This document shows positions 37,801-40,800 of a stretch of DNA of 64,000 nucleotides, in pieces. The stretch lies in contig OU744451.1 of assembly GCA_916610825.1 (NCBI GenBank), positions 16,763,307 through 16,827,306 of the forward strand. Direction: 5' to 3'. Every line of letters begins with the position of its first letter. Position 1 is the stretch's first letter. The position numbers and the translations under genes were made by a program. The notes under the pieces are model-generated. The model ran no database searches, was not told where the DNA came from, and saw only the letters and a list, made by a program, of their open reading frames with translations. This DNA is from Haliclystus octoradiatus (taxonomy: Eukaryota; Cnidaria; Staurozoa; Stauromedusae; Haliclystidae).

Positions 37801-40800
37801 TAACCAAACAACATATAAATACAAATGATAGTCTACCTCCAACGCTTGCATTCTATATAATAATCCAGAATAATCGTCATGTTTTTCATTGAAAAGTTCA
37901 TGGAAATTTTTCTTATAAACTAACTTCATGTTGTACTTTTCTGCCAATCTGAAATGACAAAATGTAAACCAAACCATGACGCCTTTCACAAAATAATTTT
38001 ATACTACAAATTGACATTCTTCCAGTACACCGGACCATAAAATATTTAACATTTGGACATAATTTCTATTTCTAAAATATTTCATTCAATATTTCATTTT
38101 AAATTCAAACCAATCAAGTTCTCATTAATTGTCAGTTCATTTTAATCATTATTAGCAACTCTCTTTGCAACACTTCATGAAAAGTCCCTACCTATTTATG
38201 AACTTCCACAATGACGTTATGAATAATTTGCATGAACATGTGTGCAATTTGACATCATTGATGACATCATGAACATTTTTTATGCACAGTGCAAACACAT
38301 TACAAAAGACATGTCCTTTAGCAACCAAAGTGAACTTGTCGATAGCATGTTCATTTATTGTTTTTCCCTGGTGTATTTCTGAGTCGTTGACACCCTGTGT
38401 GCGTGAATCAATTATGGTTATACAAATCAACAAACACACATACTTCTCTACAACAGGAAAGTGAACCAAAAATTCGGGGCAGTCAACAACATCGTGTAAC
38501 TTGAAATTATATTTTGCACCGAATAATGGGAAGTTTTCTTTATCTTCAAAGTCAATTGTATAGATATCATTGCCGAATGAGGTTGCCTCTGATGATTTGA
38601 CTTTTTGACTGAAACAGAAAATAAAATAAACATAGTTCATAATTGTGTTAGGACATCGCAACCAGTACAGGGAAACTCGGATTCGAAGCAAAGTTAGTAA
38701 AGATTTCCCAAAAATTTACATGCAAGCCTTTTCTGTTTATAAAATTATCATTTTTCCTTCCATTTATATTATATTTGCTGCTTTAAATTACAATAATATT
38801 TCTCCAATGAGTTGATAACGGATTGATCAGAAATATCCCAGTTAAATCTCAGACAAAACTGTTTTGAAAATCTACATCTGACTGTCAATTGATTATTCAA
38901 TCATGTTGTTATTCAACCGGGACTGCGCATGCGATATGCACCGAGGTTGTCACCATCTCTACAATTCGTTAGCGGGACTTCAGGCGCGATGCCTGACGAG
39001 TTACGACATCAAAAAGGTCTCTGATGAGTTCCTTGGCAGGAACGAAACACGTGTCAGACCAGCCTCATCAATTGATTATTCAATCACGTTGTTATTCAAC
39101 CGGGACTGCGCATGCGATATGCACCGAGGTTGTCCCCATCTCTACAATTCGTTAGCGGGACTTCAGGCGCGATGCCTGACGAGCTACGACATCAGAAAGG
39201 TCTCTGATGAGTTCCTTGGCAGGAACGAAACACGTGTCAGACCAGCCTCATCAATTGGTTATTCAATAGCATCCTCAAAAAGGTGTCTGCACAAAAATAT
39301 TAAAAATGAGGGGATTTAGGAATTTTTAAATGTTCCCGTTTCTTATTATTGAGGATGTTTGTGATATCGGTCATAGAAACTGTTTTTAGATTAGAATTAT
39401 TCAATGTTTGAAGATGTTAATTACAGTTTAGTTGGATTATTTATGTAAAGGTAAGATAATATTCATGATTAGCTTTTTAAAACTCTTGAAAACGCAAATT
39501 TGAGCTGCACTTTCTCAGTTCTCATTATATTGTCTTGCTAATACCAATATAAACGTTTATCTCCCTATTTTCTTTCCAGTCGATTCCACTCCATTAACAG
39601 CAAGGAATTTGATTGCGTAGTTATGGGATTTGGCAAATTTGGAAAAATGTGAGTGCAAACATGACTTTCATAAACAACTTTTTAACTGGAAAAATAATGA
39701 TGAGCCTCATGCGAGTTTATTATAGCTTCCTGAGTGTCTCCTAACACCACAGATGTATACATTTGCGAAGGGGGACTGAAAACCTGAGCATGCATAGAAA
39801 AAGTTTGCATGAACCTTACAATAGAAAGAAAAACATACACATATATTATCATGTCTGAAATTGAAACATGGTTTGTCTGTCATTATAATTGCTTTGGTTT
39901 TTTATTTGGGTTAATAAGAAGTAATGGCTCAACCTTGGTGTGTGCATTCATTTATACTCCTTGCACGCTCAATCGACTAATCAAATTGCTAGGAATTATT
40001 CAATCGTTTCAGAACTAAACGTTTGGTCAAATTGGTATGCCTTCATCTGTATTTTCATGCATGCTGCTGCATCAACCAATCAAATTGCTAGGAATTTTTT
40101 ATTGTTTGTAAAATAAATGAATAAACAAAGATATGCCGTCAATATCTTAATAGGCCTATATATATATATACACATAAGATATATAAGAATCGATTTAATA
40201 CGAGACAAAGATGAGGCAAAGCCCTTTTCCGTTTTTCCAGTAAAAGGCTTTGCCTCATCTTTGTCTGGTGTTATATAATGCTCTGTTTTAACCAACATTG
40301 AGCCTTTTTCATTATATGTGTATCTGAGATCACACTCTCTATAATTAACTTTTTAATTCATTATTATAAGAATCGATTTATTATAATTTGACAAGCTACT
40401 TACACTAATCTGTTAGAATCAGGCGTTGTTCCAATAAAATAGCCTCCATCACGAAGATTCTCGCAGGCATTTTTAAGCATCATCTCTGCTTGTTCTAACG
40501 ACTCAAATGAATAATGAAAAGCAAACTGACAACTGGTAAGATCGAGTTGGATGTTTCCGTCGGTGTACATCTCATTTATTTGTTTCTAAAACAACAAGGG
40601 CAACAACTACAGCATAAAAAAATTCAGAGCAAACAGAGATTGAAAATATTGAATAGCCAGAATATTTAACCAGATATTCAAGTTTAAGTTAATTGCAACA
40701 ATATTTACAATTGTGCGCAGCGCAAGGCAGTTCACAGTCGATTAAAGTAACATCAAGGGTAGATTAAATGGTTGATACCTTGGTACAATCGGCATGGATA

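Follow-up and report, generated by a model that had tools for sequence, protein, structure and literature searches.

Animal non-LTR retrozymes, a kind of non-autonomous retroelement, are described from Acropora, Mytilus and axolotl as type I hammerhead units of 170-400 nt, arranged head-to-tail in tandem, dispersed through the genome, present as circular RNA and flanked, where duplications are present, by duplications of more than 4 bp (Cervera and de la Pena 2020, PMC7229834, cited throughout, like the other sources, from the accessible part of the article). In the model proposed for them, circular RNA serves as the template and LINE or Penelope-like enzymes serve as donors (PMC7229834). Duplications of 15 bp of the LINE-like kind are described from Nematostella (PMC4918200), and circRNA-derived pseudogenes provide, in the accessible literature, a precedent for circles being copied into genomes. 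The satellite hammerheads of newts and salamanders, carried on a unit of about 330 nt, combine a very short stem III with a self-complementary loop and are active as dimers; an axolotl retrozyme shows a weak stem III and a palindromic loop, and a second axolotl family has a two-pair stem III (PMC7229834). Penelope-like elements and Terminons contain a compact type I core with a short stem III, for which cleavage as a dimer is expected (PMC7761336). Plant LTR retrozymes likewise consist of a ribozyme-flanked unit with a circular RNA intermediate, but differ in their type III hammerhead, their LTRs with a primer site and polypurine tract, their 4-bp duplications and their size of 600-1000 nt (PMC4918200).

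The locus described here lies in a 64,000-nt stretch of the Haliclystus octoradiatus genome, referred to as the window, which forms part of contig C7 in a 262-Mb assembly. With the animal non-LTR retrozymes it shares the type I ribozyme, the head-to-tail arrangement, the dispersal and, elsewhere in its family, duplications longer than 4 bp; with the axolotl elements, the two-pair, weak stem III and the palindromic loop; and with the newt and salamander satellites, the very short stem III and the self-complementary loop, although its unit measures 183 nt. The compact core and short stem III also resemble those of Penelope-like elements and Terminons, but the unit contains no reverse transcriptase and the duplications enclose the small unit. 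The element very probably belongs to the known animal non-LTR retrozymes, and the insertion footprints of the family are clear. Insertions ending 8-35 nt past the cleavage site, together with starts at the first base after it, are undescribed in the accessible part of PMC7229834. Likewise, the examined portion of the retrozyme and Penelope-like literature yielded no account of a fixed start, a cluster at one lap or starts at the cleavage site, and the accessible part of a Schistosoma W-element paper (PMC8490949) contains neither a retrozyme nor circular RNA. The array in the window is very probably one insertion of a dispersed animal non-LTR retrozyme family with the life cycle outlined below.

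Tandem array and hammerhead ribozymes in the window

The array occupies positions 38885-39267, where Tandem Repeats Finder detects 2.1 copies of a 183-nt unit with 97% matches. Tandem-repeat analysis and unit comparison divide it into a first unit (38885-39067), a second unit with four differences (39068-39250) and a partial third unit (39251-39267), all on the plus strand. The mismatches between the units, at 38904, 38952, 39001 and 39012 against the bases 183 nt further on, leave the ribozyme untouched, as the original prediction had stated. The same 17-nt stretch, TCAATTGRTTATTCAAT, borders the array at both sides, so a separate target-site duplication is indistinguishable at this copy; its flank-to-flank match (locus L001) extends over just 4 nt. 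The GC content of the two units, 0.481 and 0.503, compares with 0.357 for the window and falls at the edge of a published rule of below 50% for animal retrozymes. LTRs, a tRNA primer site and a polypurine tract are expected to be absent from such retrozymes; the longest purine run is 7 nt, and no tRNA gene is present at 38700-39500.

Within the array, two type I hammerhead ribozymes are located on the plus strand at 39016-39060 and 39199-39243, with predicted cleavage at 39055/39056 and 39238/39239, as identified by the Rfam model, the core pattern and motif reading. The two 45-nt ribozymes are identical to the letter and are spaced by 183 nt, in agreement with the earlier claim of two intact copies. 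Each contains the complete catalytic core that had been described, with a stem I of five pairs (GGUCU/AGACC), a stem II of six pairs including G-C, and a stem III of two pairs. The entire Rfam Hammerhead_1 model, proposed as a check, aligns to each copy, scoring 25.2 bits (E 8e-4, 601 nt searched). The gathering score of 34 is not reached, and the default scan therefore lists neither ribozyme. A chance origin had been judged unlikely, and the core pattern, matched twice in the window, occurs in none of 100 dinucleotide shuffles. Fold stability is unremarkable, with z = -0.41 for the isolated ribozyme and z = -0.94 for the monomer. The two predicted cleavages delimit a monomer of 183 nt at 39056-39238 (plus strand), corresponding to unit positions 1-183, with unit position 1 defined as the first base after the cleavage site.

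The 8-nt palindrome ACACGUGU, found at 39047-39054 and 39230-39237, spans stem III. Its self-complementarity across this stem allows two ribozymes to pair as a dimeric hammerhead, in which RNAcofold and the sequence assign the plus-strand palindromes ACACGTGT at 39047-39054 (ribozyme 1) and 39230-39237 (ribozyme 2) to a possible helix III. For two bare 45-nt strands, RNAcofold predicts such a dimer at -32.3 kcal/mol, paired through the palindrome and stem I; the single 45-nt strand folds best at -10.7 kcal/mol, with the active form at -8.6. Upon addition of flanks (72-nt strands), the predicted pair retains helix III and loses the active stem I, and a single 68-nt strand favours an inactive fold (-17.3 versus -10.1). 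By analogy with newts and axolotl in the accessible part of PMC7229834, the ribozyme likely cleaves as a dimer. In the predicted folds with flanking sequence, the ribozyme core is hidden in a hairpin, and in the predicted circle unit positions 135-141 pair with 148-154 at probabilities of 0.91-1.0. This core-masking hairpin was rejected as a feature of the element: forcing the hammerhead costs 9.8 kcal/mol, a value equalled by 16% of shuffled units, and 5% of shuffled units mask the core equally well.

The array is flanked by two exons of RNMT (mRNA cap guanine-N7 methyltransferase) on the minus strand, identified by matching open frames to a solved chain: 40406-40570, corresponding to residues 106-160 of chain 8q69_A, and the next exon, 38443-38613, corresponding to residues 160-216. 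GT and AG adjoin the exon ends, which places the array within a single intron of RNMT, in antisense orientation. The earlier placement in a gene intron is thus retained, with the qualification that the ribozymes lie on the strand opposite to the gene. With the ribozymes on the plus strand and RNMT on the minus strand, the ribozyme is absent from the RNMT transcript; cutting of RNMT transcripts is not expected, and a transcript of the opposite strand would be required. The intron also contains an inverted repeat at 40193-40276, with 35-nt arms, 89% complementary, separated by a 14-nt spacer.

Genome-wide family of insertions

Allowing up to three mismatches, a search of the 262-Mb assembly with the 35-nt core returns 201 sites (88 forward, 113 reverse), distributed over nine contigs; the reversed core pattern returns none in the same search. 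The original reading of the locus as a tandem of minimal type I hammerheads of the animal-retrozyme kind remains the best one, and the genome-wide searches reveal a dispersed family. The loci analysed come from the first 100 matches, comprising all 72 exact cores and 28 cores with one mismatch. From these, 82 loci, including all 72 exact sites, were used and gave 85 pieces. The set of 79 elements with both flanks excludes the duplicated L037 and L097-L099 and the end-cut pieces L008 and L017; the exact-core set of 55 elements omits the sites in the array at 7.65 Mb of C7 and L037. No relatives of the unit were found in a phage collection, and the exact core is absent from viral contigs; neither resource holds animal genomes.

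The 79 elements show a median identity of 96.6% to the window unit. Two subfamilies are distinguished by the start of the unit, CCTCATCAA in the 183-nt form of the window and CCGCTTTATCAA in a 186-nt form, the former scoring best in 51 of the 79 elements and the latter in 28. Changes from C to T or from G to A account for 87 of 165 substitutions. Insertion length exceeds 1.1 units in 22 of the 79 elements and is below 0.9 unit in 38; a tandem arrangement is thus not typical of the family.

At some loci, the copies have multiplied or changed in place. At C7:7650336-7652822 (L008, L017, L020 and L021), retrozyme units form a local array, in which 17 records extracted from L008 and L017, two loci that overlap, measure 144 nt and lack 39 nt on the upstream side of the ribozyme core; this looks like the expansion of a deleted unit. 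Two loci on C1 about 28.6 kb apart, L004 and L037, have common flanks and a common duplication, and their lengths of 302 and 119 nt differ by exactly 183 nt. On this sequence comparison, the locus was duplicated and a unit was then gained or lost, so the number of units is unreliable as a counter of laps. On C4, at 4.67-4.80 Mb, four 124-nt copies (L096-L099) have nearly identical flanks and were probably copied within the duplication of a larger sequence.

Insertion ends and target-site duplications

A single assembly that supplies all exact-core insertions of a family makes the return of a retrozyme into DNA testable by anatomy. The answers obtained here are a fixed start just past the ribozyme, several preferred stops, one of them at one lap, and a small number of ends exactly at the cut site. 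The 3' ends fall at unit positions 8-35, just beyond the ribozyme, in 77 of 79 insertions, while the 5' ends vary; the exceptions are L027, which ends at 183, and one piece of L075, which ends at 76. Queries with both subfamilies, which returned no end value for two elements, place the 3' ends at 11-29 and 11-38, L027 and the L075 piece aside. The 8-35 interval also holds for the exact-core set, with 54 of 55 elements ending there. The elements were selected for containing the core and for neither end. Most family insertions end within ATCAATTGAT, unit positions 12-21 (39067-39076, plus strand), the putative start of reverse transcription. Stops of reverse transcription at structured sites were considered and set aside as weak, the observed arrangement ranking 8 of 183 rotations.

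Left and right flanks have 8 nt or more in common in 44 of 77 elements and less in the remaining 33. Upon random re-pairing of flanks, 4.5% share at least 8 nt, and 8 of 77 was never exceeded in 200 trials. For 28 cases the mean overlap between the duplication and the 3' end of the element is 3.9 nt, compared with 0.5 nt at random flank positions; these cases come from 37 elements whose duplications measure at least 9 nt, and are those in which the duplication begins at most two bases past the matched end, and selecting duplications of this length, overlap included, somewhat inflates the mean. This microhomology appears as if nicked DNA primed synthesis through a few matching bases. Collectively, the fixed 3' end, the 5' truncation and the duplications of about 8-15 nt are marks that point to target-primed reverse transcription. 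An inverted piece of retrozyme at the 5' junction was seen in L046 (15 nt) and in no other element.

Exact starts at unit position 1 occur in four of the 79 elements (L015, L066, L073 and L090), compared with 0.43 expected (Poisson 0.001), and subfamily-aware queries leave the same four. In L066, L073 and L090, a duplication of 10-13 nt abuts this start directly or after one base, as judged by eye and with one mismatch in L066; in L015 the flank match is only 5 nt. These four look like copies of linear RNAs with a ribozyme-made 5' end, and would constitute indirect evidence that the ribozyme cuts in the animal. L027, whose last base is position 183, is consistent with the 3' end of a linear RNA. 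A further group comprising five 5' ends, all at position 12, proved to be an artefact of the one-subfamily query.

Circular and linear templates and rival explanations

The cleavage junction is crossed by 78 of the 79 elements, most of them chosen for the adjacent core; the bond was therefore intact in the template, which was either a circle or an uncut tandem transcript. Lengths of the exact-core elements carry further information. With the one-subfamily query, 13 of 55 fall at 170-199 nt, compared with 3 at 140-169 nt and 2 at 200-229 nt. Measured against the unit of their own subfamily, 11 of 55 lie from -10 to +19 nt of one lap, with 2 and 4 in the neighbouring bins, and after removal of the position-1 starts and L027 the one-lap bin holds 10, with 2 in each neighbour; the bins were set after the list had been seen. 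This cluster fits an enzyme meeting its own start on a circle. Other clusters are found at 70-41 nt short of the unit (13 of 55) and at 130-101 nt short (9 of 55), so that stops favour certain places regardless. Variants shared between laps were tried as a test for a common template and did not separate circle from array: none are shared in 15 of 22 elements, and over the 22 elements 26 occurrences are shared and 134 are lap-specific.

From these footprints we infer the following route, in which cleavage, circle formation and the donor enzyme are the conjectural steps. A transcript spanning two ribozymes would be cut at 39055/39056 and 39238/39239, perhaps by dimeric hammerheads, and the resulting 183-nt RNA may be circularised by a host ligase. 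An autonomous element would lend its endonuclease and reverse transcriptase, and AT-rich DNA would be nicked. The nicked end would anneal by a few bases near AUCAAUUGAU, just beyond the ribozyme, and copying from this region would cover less than a unit, a full unit or a longer stretch. The product would then be inserted, duplicating about 8-15 nt of the target site. We tentatively read the footprints as target-primed reverse transcription on closed circular ribozyme RNA, with a stop near its own start and a minority of copies from linear RNA marking the cleavage site, and hold this at somewhat less than even confidence. If true, it would provide sequence-level evidence for circle-templated integration, in the accessible literature a proposed model for animal retrozymes. 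The insertion anatomy also predicts a donor enzyme that accepts the AUCAAUUGAU region and whose own copies have similar 3' ends and duplications.

A circle is unneeded if read-through or once-cut transcripts of arrays were copied, as linear RNA only, from the same internal point to the 5' end or to a fall-off, a serious alternative that we nonetheless consider rather doubtful. It accommodates the four starts exactly after the cleavage site and the end of L027 at the last base before it, and the one-lap cluster may be another preferred stop among those seen elsewhere; furthermore, the change of unit number between L004 and L037 means that more than one unit is no proof of more than one lap. Linear copying, however, has no explanation of its own for the excess at one lap from the start point, ribozyme cleavage would not be predicted to produce the one-lap 5' ends (unit positions 7-24), and other retrozymes make abundant circles, as described in the accessible part of PMC7229834.

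The remaining explanations dispense with a separate retrozyme or with its RNA cycle. It is unlikely that the unit represents part of a Penelope-like pseudo-LTR: the short stem III and the lack of an evident loop-loop partner recall the minimal type I forms that a review assigns to Penelope-like elements, but recognisable duplications enclose the small units alone, and the insertions are therefore whole elements. Ordinary satellite DNA, spread by unequal exchange or extrachromosomal DNA circles with the hammerhead as a passenger, is less likely still. Local expansion is indeed seen in the 7.65-Mb array of C7 and at L004/L037, and the window array has the same 17-nt stretch at both borders; against this, the units are dispersed, mostly single or partial, and combine flank duplications with fixed 3' and variable 5' ends. 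A last suggestion, that the 183-nt circle of 61 codons, stop-free in one frame, encodes an endless peptide, is very hard to credit. Frame 0 of the circle is free of stops, a frame of 145 residues spans both copies, and 44 of the 48 internal unit records, many contributed by one array, have a length divisible by three. Synonymous substitutions, however, number 46 of 165, compared with 51.4 ± 5.5 by chance; 14 of 69 unit records, spread over 13 loci, contain an in-frame TAA; 14% of shuffled circles have a stop-free sense frame; and a protein search returned no homologue at E 0.001. On substitutions, TAA codons, shuffles and homology search, the open frame is attributed to chance.

Elsewhere in the window, a LINE-type reverse transcriptase extends over two open frames at 46485-47760 on the minus strand, with an RVT_1 domain in one of them. 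Its 3' region is unlike the retrozyme end as compared by eye, and several GTGTCTGACTGACA-like stretches lie downstream. A Maverick/Polinton-like element at 4594-11027 and 923-4407 contains an A32-type ATPase and an integrase with a chromodomain (Pfam), along with DNA polymerase and capsid-like frames read from the translations. At 14192-18625 on the minus strand, an open gypsy polyprotein of 1478 residues comprises reverse transcriptase, RNase H and integrase domains, and its named animal relatives (Orchesella, Caligus and Sycon) are at most 46% identical. Other tandem repeats occupy 11363-11748 (185 nt), 11868-12144 (69/138 nt) and 21285-21554 (130 nt), and FAM210 and MADF/BESS domains are found among the genes of the host.
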